A DNA stretch of 45,875 nt from the NCBI GenBank assembly GCA_040218145.1, contig JAVJQK010000018.1:1-45875 (forward strand). Reading direction: 5' to 3'. The stretch comes from Sandaracinaceae bacterium. Its GTDB lineage: Bacteria; Myxococcota_A; Polyangia; Polyangiales; Sandaracinaceae. The notes below the pieces were generated by a model. The model searched no databases. It was not told where the DNA came from and was given only the letters and a program-made list of their open reading frames with translations. Position numbers and translations under genes: made by a program. Shown here in pieces: positions 21,590-45,735 of the stretch; within the stretch, counting starts at the first letter, position 1; each line of letters starts with the position of its first letter.

Positions 21590-22750
<1,161 letters not shown>

Positions 22751-30938: not shown

Positions 30939-32105
30939 TCACGGGCCGGATGGGTCGGACGGAGCGGACCGGGCGCGCGCGCGGATCACCGGCTGCGGGA
31001 TCGGGAAGGGCAGCAGGTAGCGGACCTCGCGCCGCATGGCGCGGCGGACCACGCCGTAGGTGTGACCTGGGTGCCAGAACAGGAAGCCGTCGGCGCGACC
31101 GCGCCGGGCGGCGCGGACCTGCTGGAAGATGAAGTGGGTGTTGAACTCGTCCGCGCCCTGGCGGAACGCCTGCAGGAAGGGGCGGATCACCGCCTGGCGC
31201 CCGAGCCGCCGCCGCAGGGTGTGGATCCCCGCGAAGACCAGCCGGTAGGCGCGGTCGTCCTCGCCGCGCATCCAGTTCCGCATGGAGTTGACGTAGAGCA
31301 TCGGGGTGAAGACCTCGACGTAACGGGTCCAGGCCTCGAGGTCCTGGCCGAGGCCCGACGGGTCGCCGCGCCGCAGCGCCGCGAGCCCGAAGACGTCGAC
31401 CCCGAGCGGGATGTCGATGGCCTCGTCCACCGCGCGCAGGAGCCGGAGCAGCACCGCGGGGCGCTCCTCCTGGGTCTGCGCGGGGTAGCGGGCGTACTGC
31501 GTTCCGTCGTCCACCGGGAAGCGCACGTAGTCGAGCTGGATCTCGTCGAACCCGAGCGCCTCCGCCTCGCGGGCGAGGGCGACGACGAGCCGGTGGTTCT
31601 CGGGGTGGTGCGGGTCGAGCCACGTGCCCCCCGTGCCCCAGCTCGTCCAGACGCCCCGGGCCGGCCGGATGTCCTGGATGGCGCGGTCCGGCACCCGCTC
31701 GGGCAGCTGCCGATCGGCGAAGCAGACGATGCGCGCGATCGTGTACACGTCCTCGGCGTGCAGCGCGTCGATCAGCGCGCGCGTGTCGCCGAGCCATCCC
31801 GTCTCCACGCTCTGCAGCTCGGGGATCTGGCTGTCGTAGTGCACCCGGCCTTCGGCGTCCTTCAGGTCGAGGACCACCGCGTTCATGCGAGTGCGCCGCA
31901 CCTCCGCGAGCACGCCCTCGGCGCCGTGCTGCCGCGTGAACGTCGCCCCGAGGTACAGCCCGCGCGCGCGTTGCCCCGCCTCGGTGACCGGGTCGGTCAG
32001 CGGATCCCCGTCCGCGTCGGCGCAGGCGAGCCCGGTCCAGAGCGACAGGACGGCCGAGAAGGCTGCAATTCCGCGGATCCACACGATGTACCAAGTGTGC
32101 AACAT
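30939..32105 (-). CDS. Exported glycoside-hydrolase-like protein (DUF4015 type)
   Basis: The 388-residue protein has an N-terminal hydrophobic export segment ('IRGIAAFSAVLSLWTGLACA'). It then shows the DUF4015 (putative glycosyl hydrolase) TIM-barrel pattern: 'GLYLGATFTRQHGAEGV', 'MNAVVLDLKDAEGRV', and 'GFDEIQLDYVRFPVDD', in which Asp/Glu residues at strand ends are expected to act in catalysis or binding. It is a good candidate for a cell-wall or polysaccharide-acting enzyme. The gene is divergent from thiD, with starts 43 bases apart. The start is the ATG at 32105; a GTG a few codons later is possible. Confidence 0.8.
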   Translation of the reverse strand: MLHTWYIVWIRGIAAFSAVLSLWTGLACADADGDPLTDPVTEAGQRARGLYLGATFTRQHGAEGVLAEVRRTRMNAVVLDLKDAEGRVHYDSQIPELQSVETGWLGDTRALIDALHAEDVYTIARIVCFADRQLPERVPDRAIQDIRPARGVWTSWGTGGTWLDPHHPENHRLVVALAREAEALGFDEIQLDYVRFPVDDGTQYARYPAQTQEERPAVLLRLLRAVDEAIDIPLGVDVFGLAALRRGDPSGLGQDLEAWTRYVEVFTPMLYVNSMRNWMRGEDDRAYRLVFAGIHTLRRRLGRQAVIRPFLQAFRQGADEFNTHFIFQQVRAARRGRADGFLFWHPGHTYGVVRRAMRREVRYLLPFPIPQPVIRARARSAPSDPSGP

Positions 32106-32135
32106 CGATCCGCGGCTGGAAAGGAAACGGCCTGC

Positions 32136-32141
32136 TATGTT
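32136..32141 (+). promoter_or_regulatory. Putative -10 element for thiD, TATGTT
   Basis: TATGTT ends seven bases before the ATG at 32149, supporting that codon as the real start of thiD and a leaderless mRNA. It overlaps an in-frame ATG at 32137. Confidence 0.42.
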
Positions 32142-32148
32142 GCGCTCG

Positions 32149-32958
32149 ATGACGGCAGTGGCGCTCACCATCGCCGGCTCCGACCCCTCCGGCGGCGCTG
32201 GCATCCAGGCAGATCTGAAGACCTTCCACCAGCACGGTGTGTACGGGACGGCGGCGATCACGCTCCTGACGGTGCAGAACACCAAGCGGGTCTCCCACGT
32301 GGAGGTGATGCGACCGGAGCTGGTCCGCGATCAGGTGGAGGCGGTCCTGGAGGACGTGCCCCCGCGGGCGGCGAAGACCGGCGCGCTGGGCACGGTGGGG
32401 GTGGTGGAGGTCGTGGCCGAGATGGCGGCGGGCTTCGACTTCCCGCTCGTGGTCGACCCGGTGATGATCAGCAAGCACGGCGCGCGGCTGATCGAGGAGG
32501 ACGCGGCGTTCGCGCTCCGCGACCGACTCTTCCCGCACGCGACGCTGATCACGCCGAACGCGCACGAGGCGTCGTGGCTGGTGGGCTTCGAGGTGAAGGA
32601 CCGCGTGAGCGCGCGGGACGCGGCGCGCGCGCTCGCGCAGCTCGGCCCGAAGGGCGTGCTCATCAAGGGCGGCCACCTCTCGGGCGAGAACGCGGTCGAC
32701 CTGCTCTTCGTCGACGGACACCTCACGGTGCTCAGCGCCGAGCGGGTCGACTCCGCGCACACCCACGGCACGGGGTGTACCTACTCCGCGGCCATCACCG
32801 CCCTGCTCGCGCGGGGCGAGCCGCTGCTCGAGGCGGTCTCGGAGGCGAAGGGCTGGCTGACCGAGGCCATCCGACATCCTCCACACGTGGGCGGCGGCAT
32901 CGGCCCGGTCGGGCACTTCGTCCCCGTGACGCGCAAGAGCGTGCCGCCCGAGGCGTGA
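32149..32958 (+). CDS. thiD: Hydroxymethylpyrimidine/phosphomethylpyrimidine kinase
   Basis: ThiD phosphorylates HMP to HMP-P and then HMP-PP for thiamine biosynthesis in the cytoplasm. The 269-residue protein shows the ribokinase-fold signatures: TIAGSDPSGGAGIQADLKTF at the start, 'DPVMISKHGARLI' and 'HTHGTGCTYSAAITALLARG' (the anion-hole GTGC motif with the catalytic Cys). Length fits the family. An ATG four codons earlier is possible, but a -10-like hexamer overlaps it. No TPP riboswitch fits in the short divergent spacer, so it is not regulated that way here. It is convergent with the permease gene. Confidence 0.93.
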   Translation: MTAVALTIAGSDPSGGAGIQADLKTFHQHGVYGTAAITLLTVQNTKRVSHVEVMRPELVRDQVEAVLEDVPPRAAKTGALGTVGVVEVVAEMAAGFDFPLVVDPVMISKHGARLIEEDAAFALRDRLFPHATLITPNAHEASWLVGFEVKDRVSARDAARALAQLGPKGVLIKGGHLSGENAVDLLFVDGHLTVLSAERVDSAHTHGTGCTYSAAITALLARGEPLLEAVSEAKGWLTEAIRHPPHVGGGIGPVGHFVPVTRKSVPPEA

Positions 32959-34743: not shown

Positions 34744-34955
34744 CCGAACCTCGTGGCTTCCGGGCCGACTCGAGACGTCCTCTAGCCCCCGAGGGCTGCA
34801 CGCATCGCGAAATCGACGGCCCTCGAGGTGCCGAACCGGCGCGCTCCGTGGGGCGGGGGCAATCCCAAAACGGGTACACAAAGCGTGACCCATCGTCGGT
34901 CGCCACCTATACTCCCCGGTGGGCCTCACGAGTCACATCGAGAGGTCGCGCGGCC
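34744..34955. other. Divergent intergenic region
   Basis: This 212-base spacer separates the permease and the signalling operon. Its right side is less GC-rich and holds a good promoter for the operon. No small gene or riboswitch was recognised. Confidence 0.5.
34885..34913 (+). promoter_or_regulatory. Putative sigma70-type promoter of the GGDEF-like/pseudokinase/kinase operon
   Basis: GTGACC (34885-34890) is a 4/6 match to TTGACA and TATACT (34908-34913) a 5/6 match to TATAAT, with a 17-bp spacer. This is the best-formed promoter in the window. It leaves a leader of about 36 bases with a GAGAGG ribosome binding site. Confidence 0.55.
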
Positions 34956-35570
34956 ATGACGACGGTGACCGAAACGGCGAAACGCCTCGGTGAGGGGCTC
35001 GACCTCTCGGACCTCCAGGAGGCCGACCTCGCCACGATCTGCGCCGACCCGTGGCTCGCGCAGCGGTTCGCGAAGGAGCTGGCCGAGCTCGCGCACGAGG
35101 TGATCCCCGGACGACGGTGGTCGGTCGAGGACCTCCGCGACATCCTCGAGGCGGCGGTGCGCCGGCGTCGGGACGGAGTCCGGGTCGTCGAGGGACGCTA
35201 CTTCCGCAAGCGCGTGCGAGAGCAGTGTGGGCTCGCCGACCGGTACGGGGATCCGTTCGCGGTGGTGGTGATCTCGCTCGAGCCGGAGCCGCAAGAGGGC
35301 GTGTACGAGAGCGTGCTGGACGCGGTGGTCGAGCGCCTCCGCAAGACGGACATGGTCTTCCTGTACAAGCGGCGCTTCGCGCTGGTGCTGCCTCGCATGC
35401 GCGCGGAGTCGCTCACGGCCCTCGTCGAGCGCGTCCGGGAGCTCATCGACGTCGGCGCGGGCGCGTCGGTCGTGGAGGGCATCGAGTCTGTCGTCTACCC
35501 CGACCCGGCGCGCCCCGACACGCAGTCCGTGCTGGACTGGGCCGAGGATCAACTTCGAACCGCACCCTGA
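34956..35570 (+). CDS. Degenerate GGDEF-like domain protein
   Basis: The 204-residue cytoplasmic protein has a helical N-terminus and, from about residue 80, a fold like that of GGDEF domains: 'RYFRKRV', 'YGDPFAVVVISLEP' and then 'RLRKTDMVFLYKRRFALVLP'. In this last segment the GGDEF active-site loop is replaced by YKRRF (137-141). It therefore should not make cyclic di-GMP and may act as a binding or scaffold protein. It begins a three-gene operon; the pseudokinase starts 17 bases after its stop. An alternative is an unrelated nucleotidyl-cyclase-like fold. Confidence 0.72.
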   Translation: MTTVTETAKRLGEGLDLSDLQEADLATICADPWLAQRFAKELAELAHEVIPGRRWSVEDLRDILEAAVRRRRDGVRVVEGRYFRKRVREQCGLADRYGDPFAVVVISLEPEPQEGVYESVLDAVVERLRKTDMVFLYKRRFALVLPRMRAESLTALVERVRELIDVGAGASVVEGIESVVYPDPARPDTQSVLDWAEDQLRTAP

Positions 35571-35586
35571 GACGGGTTGCGCTGAT

Positions 35587-37068
35587 ATGGTTGCGTCGGT
35601 GGGTGAGGGTAGGGCGAGGGTCGGCGGCGGCTCGGTCGGGAAGTACGAGATCGTCTCGCGTCTCGGCGGCGACGCGCGCGTGGCGCGGTATCTCGCCGAG
35701 CACACCGCCATCGGCCGCTCGGTGGAGCTGCACTGCCTGGCCGAGGGGCAGCCGGCCGAGGGCGACGCCGCGAGCCAGCTCCTTCGCGAGGCGCGGGTGC
35801 TCGGCGGCGCGACGCATCGCAACCTCCAGAGTGTGGTCGACTCCGGCCGCGACGCCGACGGGCGCCCCTACGTCGTCTACGAGTCGCTCCGCGGCGCGAG
35901 CCTCGCGGAGCTGATCGGACAGAACCCGCGCGGCGTCGATCCCATGCGGGCCGCGCGGCTCGTGCTCCAGGTGCTCGAGGCGCTGCGCGCCCTTCACGAC
36001 GCGGGCGTGGTCCTGCGCACGTTCGGGCCGGAGAACGTGATGGTCGAGTCGGTCAGCGCCGGCGACGAGCTGGTGAAGATCCGCAGCCTGCATGACGCCG
36101 CGCTCCTGATCGAAGGCGGCGCGGCGCCCATCGAGGGGGCCACGTACACGCCCTACCTCGCGCCCGAGGTGCGCCGCGGCGAGCCCGGGCTCGACCCGCG
36201 GGTCGACTTCTACTCGGTGGGCGTGATGCTGCGCGAGCTCCTGAGCGGGAAGCGCCGAGGCGACGATCACGCGCTGAGCGACACCGCGCGCCGCGCCCTG
36301 GCCCGCGCGCTCGCCGAGGACCCGGAGGAGCGCTTCGCCAGCGCCGACGGGTTCCTCCAGGCCGTGGCCTTGCTCCTGCCGACCGCGGATCGCCCACCGC
36401 GCGAGCAGCTCCCCACGCCCCAGGATCCGTTGCACGCCGACCTGCAGTACCTCCACCTGCGCCGCACGACCCGTCACGGGCTGCGCGCGGACGAGTCGTC
36501 GGACAGCCGGATGTCGTTGCTGCCGGTCTTGCTGACCATCGAGGCGGTGTACCGACGCTTCGGCCAGGACGTCTGGGCCTCCCTCTGCCGCGAGGTCGAG
36601 GACGCGGAGTCCCTCCTGCCCGGCGCGGGCAACACGCCCGTCCACCTCGAGCAAGGGGTGCCGGTGCCGCTCTTCGCGGAGATCCTGCTGACGGTGGATC
36701 GCATCGCGGGCCAGGGTGATCTCTCCCTGGTGCCGGAGCTCGGCGAGGCGGTCGCGCAGCGCGGGCTCGCGCGCCTGTTCCCGGAGCTGCCCGAGCCGCT
36801 CACGCCGTCGACGCTCATCGCGGGCTTCTCGTACATCTGGTCGCGGATCGGGTTCGACGGCGTCGCGCGCGTGCAGCGCGTCTCGGACGTGCAGGCCCGG
36901 CTCTGGCTCCAGGACCAGACGACGCCCAGCCTCGAGCTCGCCGGATGGCTCGGAGGGGTCCTGCGCGAGGCGATGCGAGAGGCCGGGGCGCGGGAGGTCG
37001 AGGTGCTGCTGATCGCCTCGCAGGCGCTCGGGGACGCCCGCGATCTCTTCGGCGTCGAGTGGCGCTGA
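35587..37068 (+). CDS. Pseudokinase (Hanks fold) with extra C-terminal domain
   Basis: The 493-residue product keeps the overall Ser/Thr kinase outline (about 20-290): 'KYEIVSRLGG', 'RPYVVYESLRGASL', APE (192-194) and 'DFYSVGVMLRELLSG'. Key residues are lost: the ATP-binding Lys is His49 (VELHC), HRD is LRT (143-145) and DFG is SLH (167-169). Catalysis is therefore not expected. Residues about 320-490 form a separate helical domain ('AVYRRFGQDVWASLCREVED', 'GLARLFPELPEPLTPSTLI') that resembles the myxobacterial DUF2378 family, with moderate certainty. It lies between a degenerate GGDEF protein and an active kinase, so an adaptor role is likely. Confidence 0.85.
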   Translation: MVASVGEGRARVGGGSVGKYEIVSRLGGDARVARYLAEHTAIGRSVELHCLAEGQPAEGDAASQLLREARVLGGATHRNLQSVVDSGRDADGRPYVVYESLRGASLAELIGQNPRGVDPMRAARLVLQVLEALRALHDAGVVLRTFGPENVMVESVSAGDELVKIRSLHDAALLIEGGAAPIEGATYTPYLAPEVRRGEPGLDPRVDFYSVGVMLRELLSGKRRGDDHALSDTARRALARALAEDPEERFASADGFLQAVALLLPTADRPPREQLPTPQDPLHADLQYLHLRRTTRHGLRADESSDSRMSLLPVLLTIEAVYRRFGQDVWASLCREVEDAESLLPGAGNTPVHLEQGVPVPLFAEILLTVDRIAGQGDLSLVPELGEAVAQRGLARLFPELPEPLTPSTLIAGFSYIWSRIGFDGVARVQRVSDVQARLWLQDQTTPSLELAGWLGGVLREAMREAGAREVEVLLIASQALGDARDLFGVEWR

Positions 37069-37138
37069 GGGCCCACTCCGCGAGGAGGTGATCCCGACGG
37101 CCCAGCCGGGTTAGGATCGGCGCTCGGGATCGCGCGCC

Positions 37139-39055
37139 TTGGATCTGACGGGACAAACCCTCCTGGGGAAGTACGAGGTCGAGAGCCTGCTGGGCGTCGG
37201 CGGCATGGGCGCCGTATGGCGTGCGCGCCACGCGCTCACCGGGCGAAAGCTCGCCATCAAGGTGCTCGACGAGGCGTACCTGAAGAACGATCAGGTGACC
37301 CGTCGCTTCGGCCGCGAGGCGCGGGTGGCGAGCTCCATCCAGCACCCGGGGATCGTCGAGGTGCTCGACCTCGATCAGACCGCCGAGGGCGTGCCCTTCC
37401 TGGTGATGGAGTTCCTGGAGGGAGAGACGCTGGCCAGCCGCATCGAGCGGCGGGGGCGGCTGCAGCAGGAGGAGATCGTGCGGCTCGGCCGCATGCTGCT
37501 CGACGCGCTCGACGCCGCCCACACTCACGGCGTCGTCCACCGCGACCTGAAGCCCGAGAACATCTACGTCGTCCCCGCCGGGCGCAGGGGCGAGCTGGTG
37601 AAGATCCTCGACTTCGGCATCTCCCAGATGCGCGAAGAGGGGGAGCACAAGCTGACCATGACGGGCTCGGTGCTCGGCACGCCCCACTACATGTCGCCCG
37701 AGCAGGCGATGGGGGAGCCGGACGTCGACCATCGCGCCGACGTCTACGCGGCCGGCGTGGTGCTCTACGAGTGCGCGGTGGGCGACGTGCCCTTCGACGC
37801 CCCCAACTACAACAAGCTCCTGCGCCACATCCTCGACTCCGAGCCCCTGCCGCCGCGTCAGCGTCAGGCGGACATCTCGGGCGAGGTCGAGCGCGTGATC
37901 CTGTGGGCGATGGAGAAGGACCGGTTCCATCGGCTGGCCTCGGCGCGCGAGATGTACGACTGGCTCGGCCGCGCCGACGCGGGGGAGGAGGTCCCCTACG
38001 AGCCCCGGCCGTCGAGCCTCCCGCCCGAGCCCATCCCGGTGGGGAGCGGGCTCGGGAGCACCGCAGCGAAGGCGGCGGGGACGCCGCGCCCGGTGGGAGG
38101 CCTGCCCGCCAACCCCGGCGTGCGCTCGAGCCTGATCAAGAGCACCGCCGCGGAGTGGACACCCTCCGAGCCGCCCTCGAGCGGCGGGTTCGATCTCGAC
38201 GTCGACGTGCAGCTCCACGACGCCTCGGTCCCCGACGAGGAGCCGGGTGACTGGTCCGTCTCACCGACCCTGGCTCAGCGCGCCAAGGCGATCTCGAGCG
38301 CCCCGCCCCCCTCCGCGCCGTCCAGCGTGCCCCCGCCTCGCGACCTCGGCGACGATCCGCTCACCCCGTCGGCCGGGCGGGCGCTCGATCTGGAGCTCGA
38401 CGAGACGGCGCTGCGGGCTTCCAAGGCGCCGCCCTCGATGCGTCCGCCCTCGATGCCCCCGTCCATGCAGACGCCCGCGGTCGGCACGGCCTCGAGCAGC
38501 GGCCAGTATCGCGCCGTGTCCAGCCCGGGGAGCCTGCCCGCCGGCTCGAGCCCGGGCTCGGTGAGCGCGCCGCACTCGGTCCCGCCGCACTCGATCCCGC
38601 CGCGCGTCGCGGACCTCTCCGGGCGCTTCGACGCGGTCGAGGAGGAGGAGGCGCCCGAGCGGCCCGCGTGGGTCCGGTTCGCGCTCTGGGGTGGCGGCGC
38701 GCTGGTGCTCTTCGTGGGGCTCGTCTTCGCGGTGCGCTGGGTCGTCGACCCGGGCGTGGAGGACGAGGTGGTCGTCGCCCCGCCCGTCGTCACCGCGCCC
38801 GCGAAGAACCGAGAGCCCGAGGCGCGCGGGCCGAGCTGGGTGAGCATCCGGGTGGAGGGCCTGCCGCCCGCGGCGTCCATGCGGCTCGACGGCCTGCCCG
38901 TGACCACGCCGTTTCGGGTCCGCGAGGGGGGCGAGCACGTGGTCGAGATCAGCGCGCCCGGCTACGAAGATCGCCGGATCGAGTTCGACGCGGACCGGAA
39001 CCGGACGCTCGTCGCGCGCATGAGACCGGCCGTCGGAGCCGTCCAGGCGCCCTGA
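37139..39055 (+). CDS. Transmembrane Ser/Thr protein kinase with extracytoplasmic PEGA domain
   Basis: The 638-residue kinase has an intact catalytic domain (about 12-275): LGVGGMGAVW (18-27), Lys41, HRDLKPEN (134-141), DFG (158-160) and SPE (186-188). A long Pro/Ser-rich linker leads to one transmembrane helix (about 512-534). The exported tail has a PEGA domain (about 567-634, 'VRIEGLPPAASMRLDG'-like). PEGA modules are surface or cell-wall-associated sensors. The start is a TTG at 37139, placing MDLTGQTLLG just before the kinase fold; no better start was found. It follows the pseudokinase by 70 bases and a TAGGAT hexamer (37112-37117) could drive it separately. Confidence 0.92.
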   Translation: MDLTGQTLLGKYEVESLLGVGGMGAVWRARHALTGRKLAIKVLDEAYLKNDQVTRRFGREARVASSIQHPGIVEVLDLDQTAEGVPFLVMEFLEGETLASRIERRGRLQQEEIVRLGRMLLDALDAAHTHGVVHRDLKPENIYVVPAGRRGELVKILDFGISQMREEGEHKLTMTGSVLGTPHYMSPEQAMGEPDVDHRADVYAAGVVLYECAVGDVPFDAPNYNKLLRHILDSEPLPPRQRQADISGEVERVILWAMEKDRFHRLASAREMYDWLGRADAGEEVPYEPRPSSLPPEPIPVGSGLGSTAAKAAGTPRPVGGLPANPGVRSSLIKSTAAEWTPSEPPSSGGFDLDVDVQLHDASVPDEEPGDWSVSPTLAQRAKAISSAPPPSAPSSVPPPRDLGDDPLTPSAGRALDLELDETALRASKAPPSMRPPSMPPSMQTPAVGTASSSGQYRAVSSPGSLPAGSSPGSVSAPHSVPPHSIPPRVADLSGRFDAVEEEEAPERPAWVRFALWGGGALVLFVGLVFAVRWVVDPGVEDEVVVAPPVVTAPAKNREPEARGPSWVSIRVEGLPPAASMRLDGLPVTTPFRVREGGEHVVEISAPGYEDRRIEFDADRNRTLVARMRPAVGAVQAP

Positions 39056-39098: not shown

Positions 39099-41744
39099 AT
39101 GAGCGAGCGCTACGAGCCCTCCGAGATCGAGCCGAAGTGGCAAGCCTACTGGGAGCGGGAGCAGACCTTCCGCACCGACGAGGATCCGGACAAGCCGAAG
39201 GCCTACGTCCTCGACATGTTCCCGTACCCGTCCGGCTCGGGGCTCCACGTGGGGCACCCGGAGGGCTACACGGCGAGCGACATCGTGGCGCGCTTCCTCC
39301 GCTGCACGGGGCGCCGCGTCTTGCACCCGATGGGGTGGGACGCGTTCGGCCTGCCCGCGGAGCAGCACGCGATCAAGACGGGCACGCACCCGCGCGACAC
39401 CACGCTGCGCAACATCGACACCTTCCGCCGTCAGCTGAAGATGCTCGGGTTCAGCTACGACTGGACGCGCGAGGTCGACACGACCGATCCGGCGTACGTG
39501 AAGTGGACGCAGTGGATCTTCCTGCAGCTCTTCCACCGCGGGCTCGCCTACCAGGGCGAGGTCACCGTCAACTGGTGCGCGGCGCTGGGCACGGTGCTGG
39601 CCAACGAGGAGGTCATCGGCGGCGTCAGCGAGCGCGGCGGGCACCCGGTCGAGCGCGTCCCGCTCCGTCAGTGGGTGCTGAAGATCACCGCGTACGCCGA
39701 TCGGCTGCTCGAGGATCTCGATGGGCTCGAGTGGCCCAACAGCACGATGACCATGCAGAAGGAGTGGATCGGCCGCTCCGAGGGGGCGGAGGTCGTCTTC
39801 GACGTGTCCGGACAGGAGGAGAAGATCGAGATCTTCACCACCCGCCCCGACACCCTCTTCGGCGCCACCTTCATGGTGCTCGCGCCCGAGCACCCGCTGG
39901 TCGAGAAGGTCACGAGCGACGCGCAGCGCGAGGCGGTCGAGGCCTACGTCGAGACGGCCAAGAACAAGAGCGACCTCGACCGTCAGCAGCAGAAGGAGAA
40001 GACCGGCGTCTTCACCGGCGGCTTCGCCATCAACCCGGTCAACGACGCGCAGGTCCCGATCTGGATCGCGGACTACGTGCTCATGGGCTACGGCACCGGC
40101 GCCATCATGGCGGTCCCCGCGCACGACGAGCGGGACTTCGAGTTCGCGACCAAGTACGACATCCCGATCATCGAGGTCGTCAGCGCGGACGGCACCCTGA
40201 CCGAGGGCGGCCTCGAGGAGGCGATGGTCGAGCACGGCGTCGCGGTCCAGAGCGGGAAGTACGACGGCACCCCGACGGCCGAGTTCAAGAAGCGCATCAC
40301 CGCCGACCTCGAGGAGGCGGGCAAGGGCAAGAAGCGGATCGAGTACAAGCTGCGCGACTGGGTCTTCTCCCGGCAGCGCTACTGGGGTGAGCCCTTCCCG
40401 ATCTACTTCCCGGTCACCTGCGACGGAGACCCGCGGAAGGACGACCCGCACACGATCCACTTCGATCAGCCGATCCCCCTCGAGGAGAGCGAGCTGCCGC
40501 TGCGGCTCCCGGAGCTCGAGGACTACCAGCCCGGCGACGATCCGGCGGGTGTGCTCGCGCGGGCCAAGGACTGGCGCTTCTTCCAGAAGGACGGGGCGTG
40601 GTTCGCGCGCGAGACCAACACGATGCCGCAGTGGGCGGGCTCGTGCTGGTACTACCTCCGCTTCACCGACCCGCGGAACGACGAGATGGGCTGGAGCGAG
40701 GAGGCGGCCAAGAGGTGGCTCCCCGTCGACCTCTACGTCGGCGGCGCAGAGCACGCCGTGTTGCACCTGCTCTACGCGCGCTTCTGGCACAAGGTCCTCT
40801 TCGACGAGGGCAAGCTCCCGGTGAAGGAGCCCTTCCAGAAGCTCGTGCACCAGGGCATGATCCTCGGCGAGATCGAGTACACGGCGTACCGCAAGGCGGG
40901 GGCGCTCGTCAGCGCCCAGCACGTGAAGTCGCTCGACGGCGGCAAGCTGATCGACGCGCGGGACGAGGCCGAGGTCGAGGCCGAGAAGGTCGACCCCGAG
41001 AAGGCCATCAAGAGGGGCCAGAGCTTCGTGCTCGAGGGCCACGAGGACATCGCGCTCGACGCGCGGGCCCACAAGATGAGCAAGGCGCGCGGCAACGTCG
41101 TCAACCCCGACGACGTCGTGCAGAAGTTCGGTGCCGACTCGCTGCGCCTCTACGAGATGTTCATGGGCCCGCTCGAGGCGACCAAGCCCTGGAACACCGA
41201 GAGCATCCAGGGCGTGCGCCGCTTCCTCGACCGCCTCTGGAAGGTGGCGACCGGCGCCCTCACCGACGACGCGCCGAGCGACGGCGTGCTGCGCCTGACC
41301 CACAAGACCATCCAGAAGGTCACCCAGGACATCGAGGCGATGCGCTTCAACACCGCCATCAGCGCGATGATGGTGCTGAACAACGAGCTGCACGGGCTCG
41401 CGGCCGCGCCTCGCGAGAGCGTCGAGGCGCTCGTCCAGCTGGTGCACCCCTTCGCGCCGCACTTCGCGGAGGAGGTCTGGGAGCGGCTCGGACACGCGCC
41501 GTCCATCCAGAACGCGCCGTGGCCGAAGTTCGACCCGAAGCTCGTCGTCGACGACGTGGTCGAGGTGCCGGTTCAGATCAACGGCAAGGTGCGTGGACGC
41601 ATCCAGGTCGCCAAGGACGCCGACGAGGCGACGGCCGTCGCCGCGGCGGAGGCCGAAGCGGACGTCGCGTCGCAGCTCGAGGGCAAGACCGTGGTCAAGC
41701 GGATCTGGGTGCCCGGCCGGATCCTCAACCTGATCGTGAAGTAG
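39099..41744 (+). CDS. leuS: Leucyl-tRNA synthetase
   Basis: LeuRS charges tRNA-Leu with leucine in the cytoplasm. The 881-residue protein is of usual bacterial length. The HIGH motif is HVGH (50-53, in 'SGSGLHVGHPEGY') and the KMSKS loop is KMSKA (659-663), both in place. The CP1 editing domain (about 220-420) contains 'TTRPDTLFGATFMVLAPEH' and the conserved 'GTGAIMAVPAHDERD'. A C-terminal anticodon-binding and zinc-free tail completes it. The KMSKS Ser to Ala change at the end is a tolerated variation. It starts 43 bases after the kinase operon and a weak TACGCG hexamer lies before it. Confidence 0.96.
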   Translation: MSERYEPSEIEPKWQAYWEREQTFRTDEDPDKPKAYVLDMFPYPSGSGLHVGHPEGYTASDIVARFLRCTGRRVLHPMGWDAFGLPAEQHAIKTGTHPRDTTLRNIDTFRRQLKMLGFSYDWTREVDTTDPAYVKWTQWIFLQLFHRGLAYQGEVTVNWCAALGTVLANEEVIGGVSERGGHPVERVPLRQWVLKITAYADRLLEDLDGLEWPNSTMTMQKEWIGRSEGAEVVFDVSGQEEKIEIFTTRPDTLFGATFMVLAPEHPLVEKVTSDAQREAVEAYVETAKNKSDLDRQQQKEKTGVFTGGFAINPVNDAQVPIWIADYVLMGYGTGAIMAVPAHDERDFEFATKYDIPIIEVVSADGTLTEGGLEEAMVEHGVAVQSGKYDGTPTAEFKKRITADLEEAGKGKKRIEYKLRDWVFSRQRYWGEPFPIYFPVTCDGDPRKDDPHTIHFDQPIPLEESELPLRLPELEDYQPGDDPAGVLARAKDWRFFQKDGAWFARETNTMPQWAGSCWYYLRFTDPRNDEMGWSEEAAKRWLPVDLYVGGAEHAVLHLLYARFWHKVLFDEGKLPVKEPFQKLVHQGMILGEIEYTAYRKAGALVSAQHVKSLDGGKLIDARDEAEVEAEKVDPEKAIKRGQSFVLEGHEDIALDARAHKMSKARGNVVNPDDVVQKFGADSLRLYEMFMGPLEATKPWNTESIQGVRRFLDRLWKVATGALTDDAPSDGVLRLTHKTIQKVTQDIEAMRFNTAISAMMVLNNELHGLAAAPRESVEALVQLVHPFAPHFAEEVWERLGHAPSIQNAPWPKFDPKLVVDDVVEVPVQINGKVRGRIQVAKDADEATAVAAAEAEADVASQLEGKTVVKRIWVPGRILNLIVK

Positions 41745-44520: not shown

Positions 44521-45735
44521 ATGGGCCCTCCGTCGATGGCGAGCGACGACAAGACCGATCGGTTCCGCGCGATCTTCGAGCCCGAGGACATCTTCGAGCG
44601 CTTCGTGAAGAACGCGAACGCCAGCACCGAAGAGGCGCTGCCGCGGGACGACGAGCCGACGGGCATGGTCGCCAACGACCACGCGGACACGACGGTGCGG
44701 CCGCCTCCCGAGGCGCCTGCGCCCGTCGCCCCGAAGGCAGGCTCCGACGCCGCCGCCTCCGGGCCGCCGCCGGACGAGCCGCCGACCGAGGAGCCCACCA
44801 GCCCGCACACCGAGCTCCCCGAGGGCCGACGGCGCCGGGGCGGGCCGCCCACCTGGGATCACGCGGTCACGGTCCGGGGGCGCTCGCCGTACGACGACGC
44901 CCAGGCGATGCGCACGGGGGTCGGCGAGCCGCCCGAGGAGGATCGGGACGGCACCCGGCCCGACGCGCCGATCGCCCTCGCGATGGCGCGCGCGTTCGAT
45001 CCGGAGGCGACCGACACCGCGGCGCTCTTCGAGGCCACCGAGGCGTACGACGGCCTGGAGAGCGTCGAGGGCCCCGACAGCGGCGACGAGACGCTCACCG
45101 TCCCGCGCGGCCAGCCGCTCACGACCGACTCCGGCCAGCGCATCCTGCTGCTGACCAAGGTGAAGCGACCGTCGAGCCCGCCCTCGGAGGACCTGCTCGA
45201 CACCGCGCGCGCGGACGACGTCGACGCGTACCCGCTCTCGGACGAGCTGGAGAGCGAGGTCGACGGCCACGAGAGCGTGGTCGCGCCGCGCGGGCTGCAC
45301 ACCCAGCGGATCGAGGCCGCGAAGCTCGTCCCGGACGTCGAGAAGGCCGCCCAGCGCAAGGAAGACGCGGTCGTGGCCGAGGGGGTCGAGGACGGCCAGA
45401 TGCCGACCCGCGAGCTCGACCAGATCCTGAGCGACATGTCGGTGCTCCTCCGCTACGGCCACCAGGCGCAGGTCCGCGAGCGGCTCGCGCTCTTGCGGCG
45501 GACCTACCCGGAGGACCTGCTGCTGCTCCGCCGGCTCGCGGAGTTCTTCGTCGAGCACGCGCAGACGGACGCGGCGATGGAGACGCTCTTCGCGCTCGCC
45601 GGCGGGCTCTTCGAGCGACGGAACGTCGAAGGCATGCGCCAGGCCCTCGAGCAGGTCCTCGTCCTCGAGCCGGGCAACGAGCGCGCTTACCGCCTGCTCG
45701 GCCTCCTCGAGCGCCGCCCCGCCGACGGCGGCTGA
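44521..45735 (+). CDS. Acidic cytoplasmic protein with helical C-terminus, function unknown
   Basis: I do not recognise this protein of about 404 residues. The first two thirds are low-complexity, rich in Asp, Glu, Pro and Ala, and probably disordered. The last 120 residues ('LSDMSVLLRYGHQAQVRERL', 'LLLRRLAEFFVEHAQTDAAM', 'GMRQALEQVLVLEPGNERAY') form a TPR-like helical repeat. There is no signal or membrane segment. An ATG at 44536 is an equally possible start; neither has a strong ribosome binding site. It is divergent from the TPR/Cys-rich lipoprotein pair with 104 bases between starts. Confidence 0.72.
   Translation: MGPPSMASDDKTDRFRAIFEPEDIFERFVKNANASTEEALPRDDEPTGMVANDHADTTVRPPPEAPAPVAPKAGSDAAASGPPPDEPPTEEPTSPHTELPEGRRRRGGPPTWDHAVTVRGRSPYDDAQAMRTGVGEPPEEDRDGTRPDAPIALAMARAFDPEATDTAALFEATEAYDGLESVEGPDSGDETLTVPRGQPLTTDSGQRILLLTKVKRPSSPPSEDLLDTARADDVDAYPLSDELESEVDGHESVVAPRGLHTQRIEAAKLVPDVEKAAQRKEDAVVAEGVEDGQMPTRELDQILSDMSVLLRYGHQAQVRERLALLRRTYPEDLLLLRRLAEFFVEHAQTDAAMETLFALAGGLFERRNVEGMRQALEQVLVLEPGNERAYRLLGLLERRPADGG

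Follow-up and report, generated by a model that had tools for sequence, protein, structure and literature searches.

A Hanks-type kinase locus with non-catalytic partners in a Sandaracinaceae bacterium: a possible pseudokinase coupler between a GGDEF-like protein and a PEGA kinase

Introduction

What would two proteins with degenerate enzyme folds do when they are encoded immediately ahead of an intact Hanks-type Ser/Thr kinase? The question is raised by a three-gene locus in the window analyzed here, i.e., the whole stretch of 45,875 nucleotides, contig C18 of the 11.06 Mb genome of a Sandaracinaceae bacterium. A sequence-only reading of this DNA had proposed that the two inactive folds and the active kinase form a dedicated complex. 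Bacterial pseudokinases are described as largely unexplored experimentally in a 2025 review (PMC12599244). For the pseudokinase of this locus, the arrangement of the genes and their distribution among genomes point to a partner kinase, to a second partner whose ligand can be tested, and to residues that could be mutated.

Results

Organization of the locus

Three open reading frames follow one another on the forward (+) strand, at the coordinates given in the sequence-only reading: ORF1, encoding a degenerate GGDEF-fold protein of 204 aa from an ATG start (34956–35570); a pseudokinase gene (493 aa; 35587–37068); and a gene for an active-type Hanks Ser/Thr kinase with a PEGA-like end (638 aa; 37139–39055), which opens with TTG, a start that agrees with those of aligned orthologues. 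Gaps of 16 nt between ORF1 and the pseudokinase gene, 70 nt between the pseudokinase and kinase genes, and 43 nt between the kinase gene and leuS (39099–41744, +) separate the coding regions. Chance open reading frames are ruled out, since all three are conserved in other genomes. Downstream, leuS also follows the PEGA kinase gene in G589, G004, G002, G001, G006, and G008 (labels of surveyed genomes); upstream of ORF1 lies a divergent citrate-transporter-like gene. A single sigma-70-like promoter match (GTGACC-17-TATACT; 34885–34913, +) precedes ORF1 and scores 9/12, as compared to a mean of 0.1 matches in shuffled sequences. Its position has no fixed counterpart in the two closest orthologues from other genera, so that the earlier claim of one good promoter for all three genes keeps its match and is otherwise weak.

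A thiD-like kinase gene lies near ORF1 in the window (31885–32958, +) and likewise at the related loci L030/L109, L031, L033, and L036; the neighborhood is therefore old. Lamin-tail-domain-like proteins are encoded upstream of ORF1 in relatives L032, L038, L052, and L053, the call for L052 falling under the Pfam cut-off and that for L053 being made through similarity to the others. Two more kinase-domain matches are present within the window, at 711–1343 and 21596–22339 (+).

ORF1 has a GGDEF fold without the GGDEF motif

The ORF1 product consists of a low-confidence N terminus (MTTVTE), a helical region, a GGDEF fold at residues 76 to 204, and a C-terminal VLDWAEDQLR. Single-sequence searches returned GGDEF matches that were all below threshold, and the Pfam GGDEF_2 match was likewise subthreshold (19.1 bits, cut-off 24.5). 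The predicted structure (pLDDT 82.5, modeled from 17 sequences) superimposes on the GGDEF domain 6khu (Z 15.1, rmsd 2.5, 127 residues aligned) and on PelD with c-di-GMP, 4dn0 (Z 12.8, rmsd 2.8, 120 aligned). In the position of (Y)GG(D/E)EF, ORF1 has YKRRF, and the GG(D/E)EF motif is present in none of the 24 aligned ORF1 sequences, the window included; the loss of the GGDEF loop, first read from the letters alone, is confirmed in these sequences. This alignment takes in 18 of the 21 loci from the ORF1 search and omits L029, which is identical to the window, L047, a fragment, and L049. Of these, L029 belongs to a Sandaracinaceae MAG (MED-G138) with 100% identity in ORF1; RxxD, the third Arg, and VLDWAEDQLR are likewise present in the L047 fragment; and L049, from Gemmatimonadetes and matched at E 5e-5, is an ordinary protein with GGDEF.

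Arg-129 and Asp-132 (RxxD), together with Arg-159, are kept in 24/24 ORF1 sequences, as is the C-terminal LDW. R129xxD132 with the third Arg matches the residue pattern of the c-di-GMP inhibitory site in PelD-type receptors; for PelD, known from Pseudomonas aeruginosa and Bacillus cereus, the residues are given as R367/D370/R402 and R363/D366/R395 (PMC7112168). The equation of Arg-159 with the third Arg of PelD comes from spacing and from alignments in which the partners are GGDEF domains other than that of PelD. HMMER aligns R129xxD132 and R159 with RxxD and ERxR in DosC and in 3ign, a structure titled as a c-di-GMP complex; these matches are weak (E 0.0012 and 0.0037), and an unrelated SEC20 chain appears in the same profile search at a similar E value (0.0027). 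Retention of RxxD in ORF1 is suggestive because the catalytic motif is gone, and is no proof of binding because RxxD is also common in ordinary GGDEF domains: of 30 examined in this genome, 27 had a readable motif, and 22 of these carry RxxD.

Ser and Thr make up 28% of the ORF1 N terminus versus 10% elsewhere across the 24 rows, in which the starts of several distant rows (among L041–L048) are chosen points in an open frame and hence unproven. This enrichment might mark a phosphosite, to judge from composition; it also occurs where no kinase gene is nearby. PHROGs contained no match for ORF1 or for the TPR protein described below.

The second gene encodes a predicted pseudokinase with an additional domain

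The second gene product matches Pkinase at 62.9 bits (cut-off 31.7) and is predicted to adopt a PknB-like fold at about residues 13 to 265 (5u94: Z 29.0, rmsd 2.4, 237 residues aligned). It has VELH for VAIK and LRT for HRD, lacks DFG and an intact GxGxxG, and retains the αC Glu and APE. Ten orthologues were compared, one per species and counting that of the window. None of them has the HRD Asp, the DFG Asp, or an intact GxGxxG (G013 retains GxG); the β3 Lys is lost in seven and kept in three, and the αC Glu is kept in nine and lost in one. The protein is a Hanks fold with its catalytic residues lost and is predicted to be inactive. Because GG(D/E)EF occurs in 0/24 ORF1 sequences and the HRD and DFG Asp are missing from 10/10 pseudokinases, the losses are old.

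The pseudokinase ends in a C-terminal domain at about residues 281 to 493 (36427–37068, +), the extra domain of the sequence-only reading. The domain is also present in three of the 20 other own-genome kinases examined (L218, L219, and L222), in which HRD and DFG are intact. Its profile matches five free-standing proteins of about 190 to 200 aa at 98.8%. Three of these (L088, L092, and L094) show weak V4R or DUF2378 similarity below the cut-off; the other two (L091 and L097) match no Pfam family at E 0.1. The C-terminal domain itself reaches 13.5 bits against TIGR02265 (DUF2378; cut-off 25). Its profile scores 0.1% against true DUF2378 proteins, and that of the free-standing relatives scores 10.4%, each in comparison to three DUF2378 rows only; true DUF2378 membership of the domain found no support in these comparisons and, given so few rows, may still hold. 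With the pseudokinase model as query, Foldseek and VIA gave kinases only among the matches listed.

The PEGA kinase is intact and of separate ancestry

The third gene product matches Pkinase at 156.6 bits with GxGxxG, the VAIK-type Lys, HRD, and DFG, and its kinase domain is followed by a Pro/Ser-rich linker, one hydrophobic stretch (read by eye), and a PEGA-like C terminus. PEGA (PF08308) scores 19.7 bits, just under the cut-off of 20.8, and the region is conserved in five aligned orthologues. Among nine kinase orthologues, the Lys is kept in 9/9, HRD and DFG in the 8/8 that are readable (G007 being unreadable), and GxGxxG in 8/9, the last Gly being Ala in G004. Against the PASTA kinase model, which has a cut-off of 450, the kinase part scores 285 bits. 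The description of this protein as an intact membrane kinase with a PEGA sensor holds for the kinase motifs; its membrane segment is putative and its PEGA domain a candidate. Long orthologues are found in 12 of the 183 genomes of the window's order, with a score gap of 511 versus 345 bits to the next matches.

A tree of 35 kinase domains was built from eight pseudokinases, seven PEGA kinases, and 20 own-genome kinases, the latter being the 19 best pseudokinase matches (the neighboring kinase apart) of 150 scored plus one from the window. Pseudokinases and PEGA kinases form separate clades with support of 100/100 and 100/99, and the two are not sisters. The pseudokinases group weakly (81/44) with L218, L219, and L222, the kinases that share the C-terminal domain. 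Origin of the pseudokinase as a tandem duplicate of the neighboring kinase was rejected (AU p 0.002), a result obtained with a single model on a tree in which the pseudokinase branches are long.

Presence and gene order among relatives

The survey covered the 183 genomes of the window's order, with the best seven to 17 candidates scored per genome; absences below refer to these candidates and are not exhaustive. The pseudokinase is found in 11 genomes, ORF1 in 20 as strong matches plus one weak match, and the kinase in 12 plus a piece in G010. With G010 counted by its contig-edge piece, all 11 genomes that have both ORF1 and the kinase also have the pseudokinase; these represent ten species, G589 being of the window's own species. 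Among the best seven to 17 candidates per genome, no pseudokinase was found in any of the nine genomes with ORF1 only, all of family f4, or in the two with the kinase only, G005 (75% complete) and G008, both of the window's family f1. G008 carries the kinase, leuS, and TPR genes in that order, with neither ORF1 nor the pseudokinase among its scored candidates. Among 377 genomes drawn from the phylum, ORF1 occurs in 15, of which 11 are of the window's order and four are of its class outside the order.

The kinase gene directly follows the pseudokinase gene in nine of the 11 genomes, the copy in G003 being truncated where its contig stops. The two genes of G013 are separated by a SprT-like/DUF2786 gene on the opposite strand. 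In G010, only the TM and PEGA end of the kinase was seen, in inverted orientation at the edge of a contig and roughly 2.9 kb from the pseudokinase. ORF1 adjoins the pseudokinase in 7/11; in G001 and G006 the two lie roughly 77 kb apart, and in G003 and G007 they are on different contigs, both genes being kept. The order of the trio is the same in genomes of three families, f1, f8, and, apart from one inserted gene, f6, and ORF1 of other species is 57 to 80% identical to that of the window. Synteny, which the sequence-only reading had put forward as a check, is borne out for the kinase, the next gene in 9/11, and fails for ORF1 in the 4/11 genomes where it lies elsewhere. The arrangement of two inactive folds before an active kinase is real and conserved. 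The three genes are nonetheless not an obligate unit, because ORF1 occurs without the kinases in nine genomes and the kinase without both partners in two.

A TPR protein encoded further downstream in the window (44524–45735, +) co-occurs with ORF1 in the presence survey. Its family is found in 21 of the 183 genomes at E<1e-50, and in two more weakly, and is present in 19 of the 20 genomes with a strong ORF1, the exception being G589, whose contig ends inside leuS. Eight of the nine ORF1-only genomes carry the TPR gene no more than 0.75 kb from ORF1; the remaining one, G503, has the two genes on different contigs, with ORF1 at the edge of its own. In G015 the TPR gene comes after the trio, in G008 and G034 it occurs without ORF1, and in the four more distantly related ORF1 genomes, from other orders, the family gave three weak matches. 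The TPR protein is possibly the true partner of ORF1.

Discussion

Comparison with related genomes suggests that the dead kinase ties ORF1 and the PEGA kinase together. We tentatively favor the reading, at somewhat less than an even chance, that this is a Hanks-kinase locus with non-catalytic partners in which the pseudokinase links the PEGA kinase to a GGDEF-like reader. Such a coupler is the simplest account because, among the candidates scored in the genomes surveyed, the pseudokinase is found only alongside both ORF1 and the kinase (in G010, a piece of it), even where ORF1 is distant. Confidence is held down because the independent gains and losses behind the presence pattern are few, and the position of ORF1 beside the pseudokinase may be an inherited one. 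Under such a mechanism, the PEGA kinase would be the enzyme and the pseudokinase the coupling element, most likely docking through its dead kinase fold on the kinase domain of its neighbor. Input would come from the pseudokinase C-terminal domain and from ORF1, which most likely still reads c-di-GMP at the PelD-like inhibitory site (R129, D132, and R159) and would hand its state on through protein contact. We infer these contacts, as well as the binding of c-di-GMP and the direction, on or off, in which the kinase would be controlled. If the c-di-GMP link is true, two large signaling systems of these bacteria would be tied together at one locus. In its fullest form, which we regard as doubtful, the mechanism would be a c-di-GMP-gated Ser/Thr kinase, with ORF1 sensing through its PelD-like site and a dedicated pseudokinase relaying to the PEGA kinase; were this so, two dead enzymes would make a direct wire from a second messenger to Hanks-type phosphorylation.

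The main rival, a serious one that we rate as unlikely, holds that ORF1 and the TPR protein are the older and real pair, that the kinase locus has a separate function, and that the PEGA kinase is the sole target of the pseudokinase, whose position beside ORF1 would reflect inherited gene order. The near-constant company of the two genes is as this reading predicts (19/20 strong-ORF1 genomes, the G589 contig ending in leuS; within 0.75 kb in 8/9 ORF1-only genomes; the TPR gene after the trio in G015 and present in the window). It leaves unexplained, however, why the pseudokinase is missing from the kinase-only G005 and G008 and was not found among the scored candidates of the nine ORF1-only genomes, and the TPR gene does occur without ORF1, in G008 and G034. 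An improbable alternative does without ORF1: the pseudokinase and kinase would act as a pair, the dead fold activating or restraining the PEGA kinase by contact and the C-terminal domain serving as a small-molecule sensor, with ORF1 unrelated. Adjacency in 9/11 genomes, with the kinase one gene off in a tenth, and alignment of the C-terminal domain with free-standing proteins, some weakly V4R/DUF2378-like, are consistent with such a pair; co-presence of ORF1 in 11/11, including the four without adjacency, argues against it.

One or both of the "dead" proteins might keep unusual chemistry, for example nucleotide transfer other than phosphorylation, since the β3 Lys persists in 3/10 pseudokinases and the αC Glu in nine, and nucleotide binding is possible in those; the absence of both the HRD and DFG Asp from 10/10, and of the GGDEF motif from 24/24 ORF1 sequences, makes this very improbable. 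Equally hard to credit is the absence of any functional link. The genome is rich in kinases, with at least 150 matches to the pseudokinase (150 of 351 candidates scored), and chance neighbors might be expected in it, yet the same trio order recurs in genomes of f1, f6 (one gene inserted), and f8, ORF1 of other species is 57 to 80% identical to that of the window, and co-presence is consistent.

In the literature searched, which mostly lay outside subscription journals, no description of this gene combination was found, in keeping with the earlier statement that no system of this composition was known. The main text of the 2025 pseudokinase review contains none of "myxococc", "myxobacter", "PEGA", or "GGDEF" (PMC12599244). 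Degenerate GGDEF domains have known precedents with different outcomes: according to one report (PMC4877007), SgmT of Myxococcus xanthus binds c-di-GMP through such a domain, whereas the GGDEF domain of TmoK neither makes nor binds it, so that binding by ORF1 cannot be assumed. Like PelD and SgmT, ORF1 combines a GGDEF fold without the catalytic motif with RxxD and a downstream Arg. Unlike them, it is a free-standing protein of 204 aa without their GAF, membrane, or histidine-kinase parts, it is encoded beside Ser/Thr kinase genes, and its binding of c-di-GMP is putative. Among pseudokinases, MviN of M. tuberculosis recruits an inhibitory protein, according to the review (PMC12599244), and 11 pseudokinases are reported among 99 M. 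xanthus kinases in another study (PMC6791715). The window pseudokinase resembles these in having a Hanks fold with lost catalytic residues and differs in its extra C-terminal domain and in the PEGA kinase of its own that adjoins it. With L218, L219, and L222 it shares that C-terminal domain, but their HRD and DFG are intact. PknB-like receptor kinases are laid out as a cytoplasmic kinase domain, a linker, one hydrophobic stretch, and a C-terminal sensor-like domain. The PEGA kinase has the same general layout, its hydrophobic stretch being read by eye, and departs from it in carrying a PEGA-like end in place of PASTA and in having a pseudokinase gene upstream. The parts are each of a known kind, and their combination is a new arrangement.
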